DNA from: a virus
Direction: 5' to 3' (one strand)
IMG/VR virus record: IMGVR_UViG_3300005828_000017
Coordinates: 1-37,621 of that record
Length of the DNA: 37,621 nt
Shown here: positions 4,562-28,843 of the stretch, in pieces
Layout of the letters: each line of letters opens with the position of its first letter
Numbering within the stretch: the first letter of the stretch is position 1
The notes under the pieces: model-generated
What the model was told of the DNA's origin: nothing
Database searches by the model: none
What the model saw: the letters and a program-made list of their open reading frames with translations, nothing else
Translations under genes and position numbers: made by a program

Positions 4562-4851
4562 TCCGTTGCTCCCGTGGTGGTGGATTGTCGTTTTACCCTG
4601 CTGAGCAGATGGCGCACCTCGCGCTGGTAGTCGAACCGGCTGACGAACCGGCAGTGATCGCCGAATTCGCAGTCTTTGATTATGTCGGAATTGACATACT
4701 TCACCGGGTTCGGATTCGGGCACGTCTGGCCGGGTATCATGATCGGCTCGACCGTTGTCGGCCGGGGCAGCATGGCGGCGTCAAGACGGCCGAGCTGAAA
4801 GCTCAAGACGCCCAGAGCGACCACGAACACGAACACGAACGCGGCCTTCAT
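4558..4851 (-). CDS. Single-pass membrane protein, 97 aa
   Basis: ATG 4851 shares ATGA with the upstream stop. A hydrophobic N-terminus (AAFVFVFVVALGVLSF) follows MK and predicts a signal anchor with the bulk outside the cytoplasm. Three Cys (CPNPN; CEFGDHC) and a basic C-terminal tail follow. The topology resembles small phage envelope proteins such as spanins or superinfection-exclusion proteins, but there is no coiled coil as expected for an inner-membrane spanin. The position next to the 32-aa membrane gene suggests an envelope-related cluster. Function unknown. Confidence 0.65.
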   Translation of the reverse strand: MKAAFVFVFVVALGVLSFQLGRLDAAMLPRPTTVEPIMIPGQTCPNPNPVKYVNSDIIKDCEFGDHCRFVSRFDYQREVRHLLSRVKRQSTTTGATE

Positions 4852-5219
4852 GCCGCGGTATCCAATCGGGAACCAAGCGGCAGGAAAAAACAGACGGTCA
4901 GCATCTGGTCTGCCTGAATCTCGTCGAGGCCATAGGCCGAGCACAGCTCGGCAACCAGCCCCGCGATATTCCGACAGTCAGGGTCGTGCTCAAGCTCCAA
5001 GATGCTGTTAGCCACTATGAGCTGAGCCACGGTGATCGACAGGCTGCCGCACCAGATGGCCGGACCATAGTCGCGCTCGGTGCCGGTCTCGGTGAGGTGA
5101 ACGATCTCGTCGAGCGCCGGAGCGGTCGACAATCCTGCTGACCATTTCCTGCCAAGCCTCACCGTCACGTTGATCTCGCCATATCTGAACTCGGGATTTT
5201 GAAAATACAGTTTTTTCAT
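4848..5219 (-). CDS. Hypothetical protein, 123 aa
   Basis: ATG 5219 (MKKLYFQN) shares ATGA with the end of the 32-aa gene upstream and has CGGAG about 10 nt before it. The longer in-frame start at 5252 has no ribosome site. The product has a beta-rich N-terminus and a helical middle (ITVAQLIVANSILELE) with no clear membrane segment. No family recognised. The stop overlaps the next start (ATGA). Confidence 0.65.
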   Translation of the reverse strand: MKKLYFQNPEFRYGEINVTVRLGRKWSAGLSTAPALDEIVHLTETGTERDYGPAIWCGSLSITVAQLIVANSILELEHDPDCRNIAGLVAELCSAYGLDEIQADQMLTVCFFLPLGSRLDTAA

Positions 5220-5314
5220 AATATACACGCTCCGGTTATTACAATCAAGCATAGAATGGCGATCGCCACCTTTCCGCCGTACATCGCTATCATTTGGTCA
5301 AAAACGCTAAACAT
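5216..5314 (-). CDS. 32-aa predicted membrane micro-protein
   Basis: I translated this by hand: ATG at 5314, stop TGA at 5216-5218 sharing ATGA with the next start. A GAGG ribosome site sits about 8 nt upstream. The product begins MFSVFDQMIAMYGGKV and ends in a hydrophobic run (AIAILCLIVITGACIL), a single predicted membrane helix. It is probably the first gene of the chain 5314 down to 2705. Its size and topology fit a holin-like or regulatory micro-protein, but no function can be assigned. Confidence 0.6.
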   Translation of the reverse strand: MFSVFDQMIAMYGGKVAIAILCLIVITGACIL

Positions 5315-5424
5315 TGGTCAGCCTCACCTGCGCGCGCGCAATGAGTAAGATTCGGCATCGTTCCATCGCGACCCATTCCCCTCTGTCACCATTCGCCCGG
5401 TCTCCCCCGTAAACAGTAAATAAG

Positions 5425-5615
5425 CTAGGTAGCTCTCGTAGAGGCTACTAGCTATTATTTATAATAGCCGACTGCGCACTGCGCACGGCCTTGATTTTAT
5501 TGAAGTTTTCAAAAACTGCGCGCAGTTCTGCGGAGTTCTGCGCATTCAGCCCTGATGCGGGTTGCGACCGATAGTGTTCACTAACTGCGCAAACTGCGCA
5601 TCGAACTGCGCAAAT
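5425..5615. repeat. Iteron cluster with AT-rich palindrome; candidate replication origin
   Basis: The gene-free stretch 5315-5642 holds repeated ACTGCGCA units. Exact AACTGCGCA occurs at 5583-5591, 5592-5600 and 5604-5612. ACTGCGCA occurs at 5471-5478 and 5478-5485. A perfect 14-bp palindrome AACTGCG/CGCAGTT lies at 5514-5527 and a variant TTCTGCGCA at 5536-5544. Next to them, 5451-5468 is an 18-bp AT-rich inverted repeat (GCTATTAT-TT-ATAATAGC). Iterons plus an AT-rich element just downstream of a primase-helicase gene match the architecture of P4- and plasmid-type origins. The part 5315-5424 holds only a leader to the 32-aa gene. Confidence 0.6.
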
Positions 5616-5642
5616 AACTGAATCGAATGAAAACATACCGCC

Positions 5643-7634
5643 TTATTCCTGTTCCGCTCGGACCAGCGCTTTCTTAGAGCCGTGCCCGGTGCCGGTCGTC
5701 GTGTCTTTGTAGATCAATTTGCCCTTTGCAACGAGGCTGCTCATCGCTCCCGTAAACTGCGCGGCGGTCAATCTTCTCGATCGACCGTCGACTTTTGCCG
5801 GGTGTTTCAGCTCCGCGAACTCGCGCGGGGCGAACCCCGTTCGAGCTTGCGGCGACCCGTTCATGTTGCGACCTTCGGCCTCAAACTTGTCAAAGAAGTT
5901 CATGAATTCCTGCTCAACGGTATTCAGCACCATGCCCGCGATGTCGATCGTCGGCTCTTCGAATTTGACGAGCACCCCGTTCTCAAGCTGCACTTTCGTC
6001 GGCTCGATCGGCGCCTCGCCCCGCAGCTCGAAGTGAATCTCAGCGCTCAGGTCGGTCGTTCCCTCTTTGAACATGACCATGCCTGCCGAGTACCAGCCGC
6101 GGAGCGCTGACGCGCCCCTGAGAGCGGCAAACGGCTCTTTCCGCATGTCTGCCACCTTCGTCTTATTCGCGTGATGGATCAGTACGATGGTGAGCTGCTC
6201 GCCGAACGCCTCGCGGAACCGGCCCAGCCGTTCGCGCAAGAAAATTTGCATCTGAGCGTTATCGTTCTCGCTGTCTTCCGCCCAGACCGCGGCAAGCGAG
6301 TCGATGGCCAGCACGCTCGGCACCTCGCCCTCGAACCGCTTGATCATCAGGTCGATCAGGTAGTCGACGCCCCGCTCATCGAAGGCCAGGGTCGACAGCC
6401 GGTCGGTGACGAAGAGGTTTGACGGCCTGCCACTGGCTCGGCGCTCAAGCGCCCACGGGTGAGCCAGCGCCCGCCGCTGGGTCTCGTACCACGGCATTTC
6501 AGCCTGAACCCAGGCGACGGGCACCTCGTTGGCCACCTCGCGGCCGAGAAACGTGCGGCCCCAGGCCAAGCCGAATAGCATGTCTTGCATGAGAAAGCTC
6601 TTCATGCTCTTCGGCGGGCCGGCCAGAATCACGTTGTCACCCTGCCGAAACAGCCCGTCAACCAAGTACGGCGGCTGAGCCTTTTCGCTATCCATAAGAG
6701 CAAAAAGGTCATAAATCGGCACGTCTTCGAACCTTTTCGGCTCGATCTGTATCAGTTTTTGCGGATTTCTGGCGGTGTGCGTGCGGGCGATCGAGGCGAT
6801 TGTCGTGTTCAGCTCGTTCTGGCTGAGCGGGTTCGGGTTGTTGCTGTTCCACTCGTCGAGCTTGGCCTTGACCGTCTGCAGATCATCTCCCGCCCCGATG
6901 TACTTGCCGGCCAGTCGAGAGGCCGCGACGTTGCGCTGACCCTCTGGCACCCACTCGTCGGTTATCGCCTCGCCATCTGGGCTGACCGTCGTGGCGTCGA
7001 AGTTGAGAACCCCGTCTTTGACGATCGGCCCCTCGATTGCAGACCGCCGCTTGTTGAACGCGCCGATCGCGATGACATCGTCGCGGGTGAGGTGTGGAAG
7101 AAAGGCGGCGGATACGTCGAAGCCTGTTAAATCGTCCCGAGTATAAACGTGCCCCGATTCATGCACGGAACCCTCGGCAACGACGTACCCGCCGAAACCA
7201 CGAATGTCGATGTGTGCGCCCGCACTGTTGCGCACTTGGAATTCTTCGGTCACCGCATAGTAGAAATGCGCGCCCTTTGCCGTGCGAACCCGCCGGCCGG
7301 TGACGGTGACCGCCCCGCTTTCCATAAAGGCCACGCCCTCGGCCGTGTCGGCATCGACCACCACCACCTTGACGCCCGTGGCGATCGCCCAGTTGCAGCC
7401 GGGCGCGCGCTTACACCATCCCTCGAACTCGGCGTCGGACGGTTCGCGGAGTTGATACTCCTGCCAGGGGAAGCGCGGGGTCTTCGGCCACTGCTGGCGC
7501 GCGCGCTCGATATCGCCGTCGAACCGCTTGACCATCCAGTCGGGCGGGGTCTCGCCGGCCGTGCCGAGCGGGAATAGGTGAAGACCCTCTTCTCTGAGAG
7601 TTTCGGCAGCCTCAGCCGGATTGTCAGCGGGCAC
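5643..7634 (-). CDS. Bifunctional primase-polymerase / RepA-type hexameric helicase
   Basis: A 663-aa fusion. The N-terminal part (about 1-170) is a prim-pol domain: VVDAD at 92-96 gives the DxD metal pair, GAHFYY at 121-126 supplies the His, and IDIRG at 142-146 the third acidic residue. Residues 325-520 form a RecA-like ATPase: Walker A GPPKSMKS at 339-346, QAEM at 377-380, Walker B VLAIDS at 441-446, the HHANK motif at 487-491 typical of RSF1010 RepA helicases, and Arg-finger RGASALRGW at 506-514. A basic C-terminal region (about 560-660) looks like a winged helix that may bind the origin. The start is GTG 7634, 9 bp after the upstream HTH gene. It would open the origin and prime replication. 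Confidence 0.9.
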   Translation of the reverse strand: MPADNPAEAAETLREEGLHLFPLGTAGETPPDWMVKRFDGDIERARQQWPKTPRFPWQEYQLREPSDAEFEGWCKRAPGCNWAIATGVKVVVVDADTAEGVAFMESGAVTVTGRRVRTAKGAHFYYAVTEEFQVRNSAGAHIDIRGFGGYVVAEGSVHESGHVYTRDDLTGFDVSAAFLPHLTRDDVIAIGAFNKRRSAIEGPIVKDGVLNFDATTVSPDGEAITDEWVPEGQRNVAASRLAGKYIGAGDDLQTVKAKLDEWNSNNPNPLSQNELNTTIASIARTHTARNPQKLIQIEPKRFEDVPIYDLFALMDSEKAQPPYLVDGLFRQGDNVILAGPPKSMKSFLMQDMLFGLAWGRTFLGREVANEVPVAWVQAEMPWYETQRRALAHPWALERRASGRPSNLFVTDRLSTLAFDERGVDYLIDLMIKRFEGEVPSVLAIDSLAAVWAEDSENDNAQMQIFLRERLGRFREAFGEQLTIVLIHHANKTKVADMRKEPFAALRGASALRGWYSAGMVMFKEGTTDLSAEIHFELRGEAPIEPTKVQLENGVLVKFEEPTIDIAGMVLNTVEQEFMNFFDKFEAEGRNMNGSPQARTGFAPREFAELKHPAKVDGRSRRLTAAQFTGAMSSLVAKGKLIYKDTTTGTGHGSKKALVRAEQE

Positions 7635-7643
7635 TGACTGAAC

Positions 7644-7838
7644 CTACTTACCGAGCGGCCGTAGCTCGAACGCGCTGATCTTTCCGCTTTCCTCTCGAAT
7701 GTAGATCTCTCGACCGCTGGTCGACCATCTGCTGATAGCCGCCTGAGAGAGCTTGAGTCGCTTTGCCAGTTGATCCTGAGTCTGTTCTGTTTCTTCTAGG
7801 TATTGCGCGAGAAGCCTGTCTTTCGCAGTTTTCGCCAT
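7644..7838 (-). CDS. Cro-like helix-turn-helix regulator, 64 aa
   Basis: ATG 7838 (MAKTAKDRL) has AAGGCG upstream and is preferred over in-frame starts near 7889. Residues 19-40 (TQDQLAKRLKLSQAAISRW) form a textbook HTH of the Cro/CI type, followed by a short beta part. The size and its place at the divergent control region, directly before the replication gene, fit a Cro-type repressor controlling replication and early transcription. No partner CI-like repressor is visible, so it need not indicate lysogeny. Possible targets are the palindrome CATAATTATG at 7894-7903 or the twin operators near 21760 and 22523; neither is shown. Confidence 0.85.
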   Translation of the reverse strand: MAKTAKDRLLAQYLEETEQTQDQLAKRLKLSQAAISRWSTSGREIYIREESGKISAFELRPLGK

Positions 7839-14666: not shown

Positions 14667-15338
14667 ATGGAAGAGAAAAAAGAAGTTCTGAATCACGGCT
14701 TCGTCAGGCTGGTCGATCATATGGGCGGCGACTTGGCCGTCAGCCGCTCGGCTAGGGTCAGTTACGACGCGCCGCCGCGGGCGGAAGATCGGGGATTGAT
14801 CAACTATTTATGGTCGAACGGGCACACCACGCCGTTCGAAAGCACGACCTTCACCTTCGAGGTGATGGCGCCGATCTTCGTGCTGCGTCAATGGCATCGT
14901 CACCGCACGCAAAGCTACAACGAGCTGTCGGCCCGCTATCGAGAGCTGCCCGAGCTGTTCTATGTGCCCGAGCTTGACCAGATCACGACCCAGCACACCG
15001 ACAACAAGCAAATGAGAACCAACGAGCGGCACCCGCATGCGGCCGCGATTCAGGGCTTGATTGTCGCTCGCTGTCGGGAAGCGTTCGTCACTTACAAACA
15101 CATGATCGACGAGGGCTGCCCGCGCGAACTCGCTCGCGGGGTTCTGCCCGTCAACACTTATTCGCATATGTTTTGCACGATGAACATGCTCAACCTGTTC
15201 AGGTTTTTAGGTGAGAGGCTTCACGAGCATGCACAATACGAGATAAGAGTTTACGCTCAGGCAATGCTTGAGCTTGTCGAGCCGATTGCGCCGATCTCTG
15301 TCGAGGTGTTCAGGAGGTCTGCCGATCTTGGAGCTTAG
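14667..15338 (+). CDS. thyX: Flavin-dependent thymidylate synthase ThyX
   Basis: The ThyX signature RHR-X7-S is present as RHRTQSYNELSARY at 78-91, with Ser88 as the conserved residue that positions dUMP. The length (223 aa) is usual for the family. ThyX makes dTMP from dUMP with FAD, NADPH and methylene-tetrahydrofolate as a tetramer. In phages it supplies thymidine nucleotides during rapid replication, independent of the host ThyA. The C-terminus is complete, and the last 11 bp overlap the next gene. There is no sign of an intein or intron. Confidence 0.95.
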   Translation: MEEKKEVLNHGFVRLVDHMGGDLAVSRSARVSYDAPPRAEDRGLINYLWSNGHTTPFESTTFTFEVMAPIFVLRQWHRHRTQSYNELSARYRELPELFYVPELDQITTQHTDNKQMRTNERHPHAAAIQGLIVARCREAFVTYKHMIDEGCPRELARGVLPVNTYSHMFCTMNMLNLFRFLGERLHEHAQYEIRVYAQAMLELVEPIAPISVEVFRRSADLGA

Positions 15339-22624: not shown

Positions 22625-25600
22625 TTATGAAAGGCCGCTGATCCTGCTGCGGCCGACCGCGTCTCGTATCTCGACCTCGTTGGCAGAGAGCGGCAGGTTC
22701 GTGTTGTCGTACAGGGTGACCCCGTAGATCTTGCCGTTACCGTCTGCCGTCGCGATGTCTGTCGGGTCTTCGCCGATGAACAGACCGAGGGTTGCGGTTG
22801 TGGCGAGCACGGTGTCTGTGCCGGCCGTGCCTATCGTGGTCTCTTCAACCCCGTCGACGTACACCTCGAAGTCGTGCAGCGAGTCGCCGTTGAGCTGTAT
22901 GAAAAGATGATGCTCGGTGCCGGTGTCAAGTGTGGCTGTCCAAGTTCGAGCGTTGCCGGTGCCTCTGATATTGATGGTCAGATCGCCAGAGCCGTCTATC
23001 GAGATTACCAGCGCTTGCGCGTCGGTGTTGGCGCCCATGCCTAACACCGTGCCGACATACCCCGCCTCGATCCAGCACTCGAAGCCGCGAACGGCCGAAC
23101 CCGTCACGTAGCCGGTGAAGCCTGTCGCTATCCCGCCGTCGGCGCCGGTGATATCAACACAAAGGCCGGGCGCGCTTGGCAGTATGCCGGCGACCTGCTG
23201 CGTCACGCCAGCCGCTGATGGCGCCGCGCTGTAGTCGGGGTTGTATTGATCACGATAGACCTGAGTGACGAAAGCTGTCGGCTCATCTAGCAACCATTGC
23301 GCGATAGGCCCGTCTCTGTTTGTCAGAGCTTCCCACGCGAAGAGCTGAGTCTGCTTGTACAGCCGCGCATGACGCGCGTCGTCGAAGTCGACCGACATGC
23401 CGAAGAAAAGCTGATAACTGCCGACGAAGTCAACGTTCGGGCCGATGATCCTGTTCACCGAAAGCGTGTCTGCAACGGCCAGCACGAGGCCGTCGACGTT
23501 TTTCGATGTGGTGAAAACCCCGTCAGGCACGCCGTTCGTGTACAGGTTGCGCTCGGTGTCGCTGACTATCGTTGCAACAATGAACGCCCAGTCGCCGACG
23601 GTGATCGCGATCGAGCCTTGCTCATCAACGGCCGAGCCGTTCAAGTAGGTTCTGATCGTTGCGAAGCCGCCGACGATTCCGACAGCTATCGCGTTGTCTG
23701 TCTGATCTCTGTCGCTGATCGCGACCATCGCCGAAGTTCCTGAGTCGACCTTAAACCATCCGCCGAATGTCAACGGGTAGCCGGTTCCGCCCTGATAAAT
23801 CCCTTCAACGAAACTGCCGCTTGCGTAGCTAGAAGATCTCGGCAGGCCATTCGTCGGAATGCCAGCCCTGACTGATGTGTGCGCGTTTGTCAGCGTGAGG
23901 TTTTGTATCAGCGCGTCGTTGACTATCCAGTTCTCGGCGCCCGAGGCACTCTGGTCGATCTCGCAGAGCGGAAACAGCCAGCCGCGGAGCGATGCGTCTT
24001 TGTCGATCTCGCTGTGAATCTCAAGCATTGCCCCGGTGAACCCGAGGTAACGAAGATTTATTCGTCTGGCAATGCGGGGCGCGACCGTTCTGGCAAAGGC
24101 AGCTATGTAGTGAATATTGCCTTCATAGTATTGCGTATTGTCAGCCCTAGCGCCGATCTTGAAGCGATCGACCGCCCCGCCGGTATAAGCGTTTGCCGGC
24201 GTAGTGACTTCTGAGACCGCTTTCTTTCCATCCGCCCACCAGTTCCACCGGTCTGTGCCAGCATCATCTTGATGCGTCAGAACGTAGCAAAACGGCTGCA
24301 TATTGGCAGGGGTCGGCCCGATGACATCGGCGCTCATGCCCGTCTGAAAGAACCGAACCTCGGCGCCGGCAGAGTGTCTCAGCCTCATCTGCTCGTCAGA
24401 CGCGCCGACGTTCGTGTTGCTGAAAATTGTGGTATTTATGCTCGCGTCCATGTTTTGGCCGATGATCACGAGCGAGAAGTTATCGACCAGACCGGTGCCC
24501 TTGCTGCTCAGCAAATGGTCTGACGTGTAGTCGAGCCGGTTGGTAGCCGAGGCGTCGAAACGTTGCGGTTTTGACGAGTCGTCGGCGCCGAGCGGCACCT
24601 CTTCGTCTGTGGTGAACGTGCCGTTCGGCGTTGGCGTGATGATATTGCCGCGCAAGTCTGCCGCCGTGTTATCCTCGATCTGAAACACGTTCTCGGGGTT
24701 GAAGTCGAGAAGCACGTCGAGCAGAGACTGAAAGCCCTTGCTCTTCGCCGCGTAGAATATCCTGATATCATCTTCAAGCGGCGGGTCTGTCGTTTCCCCA
24801 TGCTCGGCCCCGAACCCTGGGTAATCGTCGGCAGCGATCGCCCCGATCGCAGTGGCAGAGCTTGCCCGCTGGTTGTGCAGATTGTGGTACAGGCTGTTGT
24901 TGATCGACCCGCCGTTCTGCCGGTAGTTCAAAAACACGTCTGTCGCTGGCGGGGTTCCGCCGGTCGCGTATGCGTTGTTCATCGCATACTGAACGCCGTT
25001 GACCCACACTTCCCAACCGGTCGACGGTCTGTTTATCGTCCAGATCTCCGACCATTCGCCGGGGAAAACGCATTGCGCGGTCGTGCGGTGAACTCTGTAG
25101 TTTCCGCCGCCCGGCTGAATAGAGATCCTGACGAACCCGCTTTGATCGACCCACGCGCTATAAAGCTCACTGTTTGTAACTTCAGACCCGAGGTTGACTG
25201 CCTCAAAAGTCCAGAGCCTGATGATGTACGCGCCGAAAGAGTCGATGTGTATGAGATTGTAGGCGCCATAAGACTGCGGCCCTTGAACATTCTTTGCCGG
25301 CCAGAAGTCGTTGCCTAACTGAAAGCCGTTTCCGCCGTAGTCTGCCGCGAAATTGATGCCGCCGTCTGTAATCGGCGAAACCTCATAACCGCTATCCCAC
25401 GCCCCGCTGTTTCCCATTTTCATAGCGTTGAGCGGGGTCGTTTTGTTGTTCAGATTCGGAGTGAAGCTGCCGGCCGAGGCGTTGCGTTCGGCTGTCGACC
25501 AGTCGAAAATCTGATACCCCTGACCTGACGGCTTGCCAAGACCGCGCGCCCACGACCAATCAAAAAACTTCGGGCCGAGAGTAACCCACGGCGACCACGG

Positions 25601-28600
25601 CTGATTTTGAATCATCCCGCGAATGACTCCGGCGAGGCTCTCCCACGATCTGCTTGACGAAAACAACGAGAAAAACATTTTCGCGTAGCCGTAGGATGAT
25701 ATGCCAGAAAAACCGCCGATGCTGAAATTTGCAGTGCCGCCGACGGCGCTGCTTGGCGTGCCGGTCCAAGGCGAGCGGCCATCTATGATCACGCCGAACT
25801 CGCCGGTGTCGTACATGAGCGCAACAGAATGCCATCGGCCATCCTCAAGGTGGCGTGCCGAATAACCAGTGATGACCTCGGTGACCGCCGACCCTTGCCA
25901 AGCGTATTGCATCTGCCCGGTCGCGGTTATAGCAAACCGGCTGCCAAGTACCGGAACCGCGTTCGCGTCGTCGTGTATGGCGATGACGCGCGGGTTCGCT
26001 TGGCCGTCCCTAACTACCTTGATCCAGAACTTTTTAGTCCAAGCGCCGACCGACGTAGACTCGTCAAGCTCTGAATTGTCAGGAACGGTAATGTTCCCGA
26101 CCCAGCCGCCGCCTATATTATGGCCCGGTATCACAATCGCACGCTGAAGAGGTTTCGGGCCGGGCGCAAGTCTACCGATAGAGCCTGCAATAGTTGCCGC
26201 GCCGCTTCCGCCGGCGACGGCGTCAAAATTGCCGGACGGCTCGGTAAGCGGGTACATCAGACCGGGCGAGGTATTTATCGCCGCAGAATATGGCGGGCCG
26301 CGCCTGTTGAAGTTGACCGGAATGACAACGGTGAACAGCCGCTCGACGGCAACCAGAGACTTGACCACCGCGGCGCCTGTTACGCTCTCTTCAACCCATA
26401 GCTCGACGAAATATTTCGAGACCGGGCCGGCATCTGCCTGCTGCTTTGCCAAGGTGTAGTTATAACCGGAGCCGGTTCCGTTGTTGAAGTCGAAGACGTC
26501 GTCGCCGGCAGGGGTGTTGCCAGAGCCTGATGGCCTGATTCTTCTGATCAGCGCCGGGCTGCCGCCGGTGTCGTCGTAAATATTCAGCAGATACTCGAAG
26601 CCAGACTCAAGAGCGGTCGCGCTCGCGTCATCCTGATATCTGGCAGTTCCGAGCTGCCGGTCTCTGTGGCGCCAGCTCATGTTGAATGCAGAGTTGATAG
26701 CAAAAGTTGCCGTCGGCCATCTGATCGAGTTGACCTGAAAGTAGCCCGGCGGGTAAGGTCTCGACGTTCTGTTTCTGAACGTATTTGATCGACTTAGTGC
26801 GCTCCCGCTCTCGCCAGTCGTGGCGACGTTAAAGAACATATAATCGACCGCGTCTGCCGCGCCGTACTCTGTATCGGTAGTTCCCATGCCGGCGGTCAAG
26901 AACCAGACGCGCGCGCTCGCCTCAAGGTCGACCGCAAGCGTGTCAATCATGCCGCGATGAACACCTGTTAGGGTGACAGTCGTGCCGGCAATGGTGAGCG
27001 AGTCATAGGCGAGAATCTCATTTTCTTCAGTCGAGTGCTCGATCAGAATATAATTTTCGCCAGAGATCCTGATCTCGTCGTCGGTCGCGCTCGCGAACTC
27101 TGACAAAGCCTGAACGTTTGTCACGTTTTCGACAATCAGGGTCGAGAATTCGTTGATATTCGCGCTCGACCTCGGGTTCACAGCGGCCTGCAGCGTGCCG
27201 ACCGGCGTGTATGGCGAGTTGCCCTCGGTCGTGTACGGGTCAGTTCCCTGCCGCTGTTCCGCTCGATATTCTAGCGAGTTCCCCTGCGGCTGCTGCAACA
27301 AGAACATCGGCTTCTCAACGCCTTCAACCGCGGTTCTGTCTTCGTCGAATTGAGCCAGAAAAAACGGCTGATCCTCGACGCGACCAACAACGGCGGCAAC
27401 CGGCGCGCCAGCGACAGGGGTATACAAAGAGGTCGGCGGGTTGCTAAACAGCGCGGCCGCTTGAGCGAACACGTCTTCGACGCAGCTCATGACGATCTCT
27501 GTCTGATCTGGCGTGCCGAAGCTGATCTTCATGACGCGCATGACAAGCTGGTCGATGCCTAGTTCTGGCTCTTCCCATATGATTACGTCGCCGGGCATCA
27601 GCGAATACGCGCTGCGATCGACAGTCAGTTCGACAGCAGCAAACGGAAAGGCGCCCTTTCTCAGCGCCCTGCTTGCGAGCTTGTTGGCGAGCGTCTTGTC
27701 ATAAACGCCGGGGTATTCCTGAGTCGCTGAGTTGTTTTTCCCGCCGAGCCGGTCATACAGAGATCGGTCTGCAGCAATCGCCGGGCTGGGTTTTTCTTTG
27801 CTGTCCCTGTTCTGAAAGTTGACCGAGACAATGTTCGTCAGTTCCTGCCAGTTTACACGCTTATAATTCTGGTATTTTATGACCTTGCCGCTGTCATAGA
27901 CCGGCAGCGCTCCGATCGTGTAGTCGTCTCGCAATAATTTGTAGTCCCAGCCGTTGAGGGCCGGCCTGTATCGGTGCTGGCCGTCAACCTGCTTTGAAAT
28001 CACGTTGAGAGTTTTTTCGAGCTGAGCCTCTTGCGTCAGTTTGAGGCTCATCATGTTGCCCTCTGCTTTCAGAGTAGCGGCTTGCGTGCCCCACGAGACA
28101 AGGTCGCCGACGTCCACGCCGAAGCCCCAGTCGTCATTGACGAAAATCTCTGCAGCGACGGCGATCGGGTTGATGTCGCGACCTGTCTGTAAGTCTGTGC
28201 CGCTGAGGCCGAGCACGTTCGGGTATGCCTCGACCTCGAACGCCATCGGGTCGAGCGATGGCGTCTCTCCGACGCCGAAATTTTCCAGCACGACATAGGC
28301 CGAATGACGATATGCAATGCCCTCTGGCTGGAAGGCAGACAAATAGCTCGACTGGTTTTGCGTAGAGCTGCCGCTGAAAAAGGTAATTCGACCAACGAGG
28401 CCGCCGCCATTTTCTTTGCCGCCGAGCAGATCCGGCAGGTTGATGTCGATCGAGACGCCGGCGTCGTTGCTGCCGGCCGTGCCTGACCAGATGACCTCGT
28501 CGTCCCAGTAGATTTTGCGAAGCGTAACCGGACCATGACAGAGCACGAGCTGCATGCCGACGTAGTAATTGTGGCCGATTGTCTGCCTCGTCGAACTGAA

Positions 28601-28843
28601 AAGTCCGGTCTTGATCTTTTTCTTGATCGGAATCGTGTTGTATTCTGTGACGTCTGCAACATGCGGGGCGGTTAGCCTTACCGCGCCAAATACGACCGGA
28701 AGTTTGCGAGTCGGGTCGATCTGCGGAAAGTTCGCCTCACCATACGGCACAGCCTCTGCGTCTTGAAGATCTGGCTTCGGGCGCAAAAGTTCGGCCGCCA
28801 CGAAGAGCGCGGCGTTCACTAGAAACAATACGAAAAATGACAT
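22625..28843 (-). CDS. J-like central tail fibre protein with multiple lectin-like modules, 2072 aa
   Basis: The start MSFFVLFLVNAALFVAAELL and the following LPVVFG...IYWDDEVIW region match the N-terminus of J-type tail-tip proteins of Chi-like siphoviruses. Residues to about 480 form the hub core and 480-870 hold Fn3-like parts. After that I see five repeated beta-sandwich (LamG/ConA-like) modules near 870-1090, 1105-1340, 1395-1590, 1625-1830 and 1845-2060. Each has a gGWF/FWIK-type strand, a W-x-F/H-VA strand and a YVDG/YTNG turn. This much longer fibre than lambda J (1132 aa) likely binds cell-surface glycans and sets host range. AAGG lies 8 nt before ATG 28843. Confidence 0.88.
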   Translation of the reverse strand: MSFFVLFLVNAALFVAAELLRPKPDLQDAEAVPYGEANFPQIDPTRKLPVVFGAVRLTAPHVADVTEYNTIPIKKKIKTGLFSSTRQTIGHNYYVGMQLVLCHGPVTLRKIYWDDEVIWSGTAGSNDAGVSIDINLPDLLGGKENGGGLVGRITFFSGSSTQNQSSYLSAFQPEGIAYRHSAYVVLENFGVGETPSLDPMAFEVEAYPNVLGLSGTDLQTGRDINPIAVAAEIFVNDDWGFGVDVGDLVSWGTQAATLKAEGNMMSLKLTQEAQLEKTLNVISKQVDGQHRYRPALNGWDYKLLRDDYTIGALPVYDSGKVIKYQNYKRVNWQELTNIVSVNFQNRDSKEKPSPAIAADRSLYDRLGGKNNSATQEYPGVYDKTLANKLASRALRKGAFPFAAVELTVDRSAYSLMPGDVIIWEEPELGIDQLVMRVMKISFGTPDQTEIVMSCVEDVFAQAAALFSNPPTSLYTPVAGAPVAAVVGRVEDQPFFLAQFDEDRTAVEGVEKPMFLLQQPQGNSLEYRAEQRQGTDPYTTEGNSPYTPVGTLQAAVNPRSSANINEFSTLIVENVTNVQALSEFASATDDEIRISGENYILIEHSTEENEILAYDSLTIAGTTVTLTGVHRGMIDTLAVDLEASARVWFLTAGMGTTDTEYGAADAVDYMFFNVATTGESGSALSRSNTFRNRTSRPYPPGYFQVNSIRWPTATFAINSAFNMSWRHRDRQLGTARYQDDASATALESGFEYLLNIYDDTGGSPALIRRIRPSGSGNTPAGDDVFDFNNGTGSGYNYTLAKQQADAGPVSKYFVELWVEESVTGAAVVKSLVAVERLFTVVIPVNFNRRGPPYSAAINTSPGLMYPLTEPSGNFDAVAGGSGAATIAGSIGRLAPGPKPLQRAIVIPGHNIGGGWVGNITVPDNSELDESTSVGAWTKKFWIKVVRDGQANPRVIAIHDDANAVPVLGSRFAITATGQMQYAWQGSAVTEVITGYSARHLEDGRWHSVALMYDTGEFGVIIDGRSPWTGTPSSAVGGTANFSIGGFSGISSYGYAKMFFSLFSSSRSWESLAGVIRGMIQNQPWSPWVTLGPKFFDWSWARGLGKPSGQGYQIFDWSTAERNASAGSFTPNLNNKTTPLNAMKMGNSGAWDSGYEVSPITDGGINFAADYGGNGFQLGNDFWPAKNVQGPQSYGAYNLIHIDSFGAYIIRLWTFEAVNLGSEVTNSELYSAWVDQSGFVRISIQPGGGNYRVHRTTAQCVFPGEWSEIWTINRPSTGWEVWVNGVQYAMNNAYATGGTPPATDVFLNYRQNGGSINNSLYHNLHNQRASSATAIGAIAADDYPGFGAEHGETTDPPLEDDIRIFYAAKSKGFQSLLDVLLDFNPENVFQIEDNTAADLRGNIITPTPNGTFTTDEEVPLGADDSSKPQRFDASATNRLDYTSDHLLSSKGTGLVDNFSLVIIGQNMDASINTTIFSNTNVGASDEQMRLRHSAGAEVRFFQTGMSADVIGPTPANMQPFCYVLTHQDDAGTDRWNWWADGKKAVSEVTTPANAYTGGAVDRFKIGARADNTQYYEGNIHYIAAFARTVAPRIARRINLRYLGFTGAMLEIHSEIDKDASLRGWLFPLCEIDQSASGAENWIVNDALIQNLTLTNAHTSVRAGIPTNGLPRSSSYASGSFVEGIYQGGTGYPLTFGGWFKVDSGTSAMVAISDRDQTDNAIAVGIVGGFATIRTYLNGSAVDEQGSIAITVGDWAFIVATIVSDTERNLYTNGVPDGVFTTSKNVDGLVLAVADTLSVNRIIGPNVDFVGSYQLFFGMSVDFDDARHARLYKQTQLFAWEALTNRDGPIAQWLLDEPTAFVTQVYRDQYNPDYSAAPSAAGVTQQVAGILPSAPGLCVDITGADGGIATGFTGYVTGSAVRGFECWIEAGYVGTVLGMGANTDAQALVISIDGSGDLTINIRGTGNARTWTATLDTGTEHHLFIQLNGDSLHDFEVYVDGVEETTIGTAGTDTVLATTATLGLFIGEDPTDIATADGNGKIYGVTLYDNTNLPLSANEVEIRDAVGRSRISGLS

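Follow-up and report, generated by a model that had tools for sequence, protein, structure and literature searches.

Primase-polymerase or RepA-type helicase genes with a replication origin nearby are already known from pRN1, P4, and the IncQ plasmids. ORF904 of pRN1 joins a prim-pol, an SF3 helicase, and a winged helix and has its origin downstream of the gene, that origin being a large stem-loop without iterons at which no specific binding was seen; the alpha protein of P4 also carries primase, helicase, and winged helix in one protein, and it binds origin repeats (PMC4234260). The IncQ plasmids, represented by RSF1010, keep the RepA helicase, the RepB' primase, and the RepC initiator as separate proteins, so that helicase, primase, and DNA-binding parts are all encoded by the element, and their oriV combines iterons of about 20 bp with an AT-rich segment. 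The primase of P4 alpha is of the Toprim type, and its helicase belongs to a class different from that of the protein described here.

The locus that we compare with these systems lies in a window of 37,621 nucleotides, the whole stretch of DNA analyzed, which comprises positions 1 to 37,621 of the IMG/VR virus record IMGVR_UViG_3300005828_000017. A gap at 5253-5642, bounded by a gene at 4848-5252 and by rep at 5643-7634 (both on the minus strand), contains a repeat array, and the features of the gap and of its rep side are as follows.

5425-5453, no strand: imperfect stem-loop past the array, where the rep transcript may end
5451-5468, no strand: AT-rich 18-bp inverted repeat GCTATTATTTATAATAGC, exact, with arms GCTATTAT-TT-ATAATAGC; candidate unwinding element
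5470-5485, plus strand: iteron block 2, two overlapping copies of ACTGCGCA
5484-5496, minus strand: near-consensus IHF site AATCAAGGCCGTG, one mismatch to WATCAANNNNTTR, weak by itself
5514-5527, no strand: 14-bp palindrome AACTGCGCGCAGTT, two iterons head to head
5530-5544, plus strand: degenerate iterons GCGGAGTT and TTCTGCGCA
5583-5612, plus strand: iteron block 1, three copies of AACTGCGCA (5583-5591, 5592-5600, and 5604-5612) at spacings of 9 and 12 bp
5643-7634, minus strand: rep, primase-polymerase/RepA-like helicase/winged-helix fusion, 663 amino acids, GTG start
5685-5828, minus strand: predicted C-terminal winged helix of rep, about residues 603-650, putative iteron binder (from models and covariation)
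6159-6707, minus strand: AAA_25 RepA-type helicase domain of rep, residues 310-492 (Pfam, 2e-23)
7137-7598, minus strand: Prim-Pol domain of rep, residues 13-166 (Pfam, 3.7e-20)
7644-7838, minus strand: gene for a small Cro-like HTH protein, immediately preceding rep and co-oriented with it

Exact ACTGCGCA, which reads TGCGCAGT on the rep-sense strand, occurs five times in the whole window, always inside 5471-5612; with degenerate copies included, the array spans 5470-5612 and starts about 30 bp past the rep stop codon. The first-pass annotation had counted at least six copies, a number that exact matches do not reach but that holds once near-copies, two of them contributed by the palindrome, are counted. 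Its palindrome of two repeats and its AT-rich inverted repeat were both found as described. The word ACTGCGC is present seven times in the gap and once more at 5756, within the 3' end of rep. No other 8-mer of the window is packed as densely as ACTGCGCA, with its five copies per 150 bp, and in 100 dinucleotide shuffles the maximum 8-mer count per 150 bp was 2 or 3, once 4, and never 5. Short repeats clustered far above chance beside an initiator gene, with an AT-rich segment next to them, are what is expected of an iteron-type origin. GC skew, which had been suggested as a check, turned at about 8 to 10 kb and gave no pointer to 5.4 kb; it is uninformative here because the skew follows gene direction.

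The reading of the adjacent gene as a prim-pol/RepA-helicase fusion was borne out by Pfam, which recognized Prim-Pol, PriCT_1 (residues 223-285, 8e-12), and AAA_25. A profile built from 60 relatives had RSF1010 RepA (1g8y, E = 3e-4) as its sole PDB match, and the structure model of rep aligned with RepA (1nlf/1olo) at a TMt of 0.72 to 0.73 over the helicase part, with DnaB and other RecA-fold proteins outscoring RepA by E-value. Judged from sequence and model together, the helicase belongs with the RecA-fold RepA proteins of RSF1010/IncQ and is not of the SF3 type. The full-length model was poor at the N terminus, and its C-terminal helices were of low confidence. In a separate model of the C terminus of a relative, L139 (57 sequences, pLDDT 80.9), the structural elements follow one another as in a winged helix; compared with the PDB the model gave no significant match (best E, 0.15), and the non-significant matches include many winged-helix regulators of the Fur, PerR, and MarR types.

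Like pRN1, the window has a fusion of primase, helicase, and predicted winged helix with the putative origin 3' of its gene, but in place of the SF3-type helicase characteristic of P4 and pRN1 its rep carries the AAA_25/RecA-fold RepA. The first-pass annotation had likened the locus to P4-like and plasmid origins; IncQ is a closer parallel than the SF3-type pRN1 because the helicase is an RSF1010/IncQ-type RepA. A RepA-like hexameric helicase, iterons beside an AT-rich segment, and element-encoded helicase, primase, and (in the window, predicted) DNA-binding parts are common to the window and IncQ. No DnaA box (TTATNCACA) was found in the window, and host DnaA may therefore be dispensable. Yet the window is not a member of IncQ: it has one fusion in place of three proteins, and its iterons are short (about 8 to 10 bp), irregularly spaced, and in both orientations. 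Also unlike IncQ, many rep relatives have IHF sites, and the Prim-Pol primase of the window is replaced in some relatives by a different kind.

The nearest relatives are the loci L130 and L131, whose rep is about 53 to 56% identical to that of the window over its length and whose modules are syntenic with the window on either side of the gap; in L130 a Cro-like gene also precedes rep. In L131 (7983-9849), the rep resembles that of L130, and an internal deletion, either an assembly error or real, splits the frame. Among the other window genes, 3-1355 matches a PHROGs "DNA transfer protein" (phrog_1745), has no Pfam match, and is 70% identical to L131:14168-15841, while the 331-amino-acid product of 11430-12425 matches the transposase-labeled phrog_4285 (E = 1.5e-16), its syntenic neighbors in L131 being recombination genes. 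The window further encodes a ThyX thymidylate synthase (14667-15338) and a 2,072-amino-acid tail protein (22625-28843).

The L130 gap bears directly on the proposal, made with the original observation, that absence of the repeats from close relatives would speak against an origin. The word ACTGCGCA is indeed not found there, but the gap has an array of its own: CRRAGTT occurs six times in the 160 bp next to the rep stop, whereas the remaining 11 kb of the locus has a single further copy on the same strand and five on the opposite one. Also in the gap are a TA-rich tract, two matches to the IHF consensus, and two copies of a direct repeat of about 37 bp. The end AGTT is common to GCGCAGTT of the window and GCAAAGTT and TCAGAGTT of L130, from which we infer that the two sets of repeats are one array that has diverged. 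Absence of a given repeat is a misleading sign in this family because relatives keep the array in place with other repeat words.

A query of viral contigs with the single rep protein gave no relative, and a rep alignment had to be used to collect the family. Viral and genome contigs together yielded at least 114 members; 55 of these were non-redundant and had at least 350 bp downstream of rep. An array was scored when a single 8-mer occurred four or more times in the first 400 bp past the rep stop; by that rule 31 of these 55 had one, compared with 39 of 2,592 control windows (1.5%) from the same loci. When members were split by length, arrays followed 30 of 42 fused proteins and none of the 9 stand-alone AAA_25 paralogues (p = 1e-4); by the same criterion the other 12 fused members have no strong array of exact words, and some of them perhaps have degenerate repeats. 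The words vary from clade to clade (AGTTGGGA, AGTTGGCA, AGTTGCCA, CAGTTTCG, GTTCCGCA, CAGATTGC, ATATGAG, GAGTTGCT, and others), and an unseeded motif search also recovered the iterons. Separately, at L019:3644-3739, about nine ACTGCGCACCA units lie head to tail near a contig end.

The primase varies within the family: the window and L130 have a Prim-Pol, L150 has a zinc ribbon of the DnaG type, phage WO has a Toprim-like domain, and the primases of other members had no Pfam match. Wolbachia phage WO (HQ906665, KX522565) has the same layout as the window: behind its AAA_25 RepA come AAGTTGGCA iterons, a TA-rich tract, and an IHF site that matches exactly. It differs from the window in the Toprim-like primase domain of that RepA. 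Arrays were also found with helicases of other types, in Acidithiobacillus phage AcaML1 and in the Spartinivicinus ruber phage-plasmid pC. The latter (L254 and L255, NZ_CP048881.1) is circular and carries two structural-gene sets; its Prim-Pol/DUF3987 gene is followed by six copies of ATGTGAAA and, as in L130 and WO, a TA-rich tract in the array region, and its gene table, which is incomplete, lists no classical plasmid rep gene. In the more distant RepA-like phages Tolls, Shrew, Tlacuache, ctLpZ231, and ctjLE16, no array lies directly downstream.

The repeat word itself points to the part of Rep that may read it. Among 24 non-redundant array-bearing members, which share ancestry, iteron similarity correlated with protein identity at 0.48 for the C-terminal part, 0.36 for the helicase, and 0.23 for the N-terminal part. 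The C-terminal effect persisted after correction for helicase identity (partial, 0.34; Mantel p = 0.006), while the helicase effect after correction for the C terminus was 0.04 (p = 0.38). In a sliding window, covariation with the iteron sequence peaked at residues 600-634, and some single helicase or N-terminal columns scored high too. There is thus a statistical link, at the level of sequence, by which the word tracks the C-terminal domain (about 600-634) and not the helicase or primase. The covariation and the winged-helix model of the L139 C terminus together lend support to the earlier suggestion that a C-terminal winged helix is the putative binder.

The position of the arrays also weighs on whether they could be operators, either for a repressor such as the Cro-like HTH protein (7644-7838) or for autoregulation of rep. 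The 30 array-bearing members have 204 word copies within about 430 bp of the rep stop and 8 elsewhere in the loci, that is, 15.8 per kb near the stop compared with 0.028 per kb elsewhere; since these members were selected for the downstream word, its scarcity elsewhere is the informative figure. The HTH gene, which immediately precedes rep on its strand, speaks for an operator, but the word is absent upstream of rep in the window, and only 3 of 212 copies in the 30 members fall within 500 bp upstream. With the array at the 3' end of rep and its word following Rep's own C terminus, we regard an operator as very improbable.

A second motif between the iterons, which matched the IHF consensus WATCAANNNNTTR, was spotted by eye, used as a seed, and then retested as a fixed, unfitted consensus. 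It occurred in 16 of 41 downstream regions compared with 3 of 1,123 control windows (Fisher 2e-22, a value that does not apply to a blind hypothesis, because the motif was first noticed in these same sequences). Fifteen of 17 consensus sites lie on the rep-sense strand, and the reversed pattern was found in one region only. Iteron-type origins often, though not always, contain a site for such an architectural protein; the window has a single one-mismatch site (5484-5496), possibly by chance.

Repeats are combined with IHF sites in attP and in cosB as well, and both settings have to be weighed. An attachment site, a parS-like partition site, or a transcript-end element would be one way to read the array, and the stem-loop past it would suit the last of these. 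Nevertheless, no site-specific integrase was recognized beside the array in the window or in the relatives checked, and a terminator alone would need neither word-conserved iterons nor IHF sites, making this group of explanations very improbable. The downstream genes seen in the relatives checked include a RuvC-like resolvase, a ParB_N-methyltransferase, and one Mu-type transposase, with neither terminase nor site-specific integrase among them. ParB_N-N6/N4-methyltransferase fusions stand shortly past the array at L143:10465-11724, L199:7765-9420, L227:7810-9072, and L244:7062-8351.

The other setting is a packaging site, in which TerS-binding repeats and an IHF site would act as in lambda cosB or pac. 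It draws on the fact that ACTGCGCA arrays sit in terminase small-subunit-type genes of many IMG/VR phages. Against it, no terminase was recognized in the window, a partial virus record, or beside the relatives' arrays; the array stays with rep as other neighbors change; and the word tracks the Rep C terminus, with no array after the paralogues that lack the C-terminal domain. We therefore hold packaging to be most unlikely.

A scan of viral contigs for three copies of ACTGCGCA was set aside as a route to relatives, as it returned mostly these coding arrays, a different setting. Arrays of ACTGCGCA or GTGCGCA inside terminase small-subunit-type genes occur at L004:3890-3932, L003:794-843, L075:3592-3629, and many other loci, directly after an N-terminal HTH-like segment; the L004 gene is a Terminase_2. 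These coding arrays are possibly TerS-binding packaging sites. Because the octamer recurs in this way, sharing it is no evidence of a shared system, and it should not serve as the sole criterion for calling origins.

The reading first proposed, an iteron-type origin adjoining the primase-helicase gene, is the best supported, given the non-random array, its family-wide position, and the link between word and C terminus. It is highly probable on these sequence grounds that 5451-5612 is the replication origin at which the product of the neighboring rep gene acts. By analogy, the best reading would be a Rep-specific iteron origin in which the three-protein IncQ (RSF1010) system is condensed into one polypeptide. 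The predicted C-terminal winged helix would bind the ACTGCGCA iterons, host IHF would bend the DNA where a site exists, and the iterons with their bound protein would unwind the AT-rich inverted repeat. The helicase domain, of RepA type, would then load onto the exposed strand, and the Prim-Pol domain would lay primers for the host polymerase. This order of binding, bending, melting, helicase loading, and priming is the most likely one by comparison with IncQ, P4, and other iteron origins.

What appears to be new is the family-wide layout of iterons and IHF sites 3' of phage RepA-type fusions, with paired divergence of word and reader. No earlier description of it was found in the open-access literature searched, a limited scope that is not proof of absence; searches on ACTGCGCA, on prim-pol with iterons, on IncQ-like phage replication, and on Sfi21 origins, similarly limited, returned nothing on point, and the word "iteron" is absent from a WO genomics paper (PMC9203015).

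We suggest tentatively, at slightly less than even confidence, that these loci represent a widespread and hitherto unrecognized class of phage replicon in which a one-polypeptide IncQ-like initiator, made of an interchangeable primase, a RepA helicase, and a fast-evolving winged helix, is served by its own 3' iteron/IHF origin, and in which word and reading head co-diverge, giving related phages mutually distinct origin specificities. A rule of looking for the origin in the 400 bp that follow a RepA-type fusion gene yields predicted origins for a large family that includes phage WO. The iteron words paired with C-terminal domains form a natural series for testing changes in initiator specificity, and the same pairs predict which related phages would compete for, or ignore, each other's origins.
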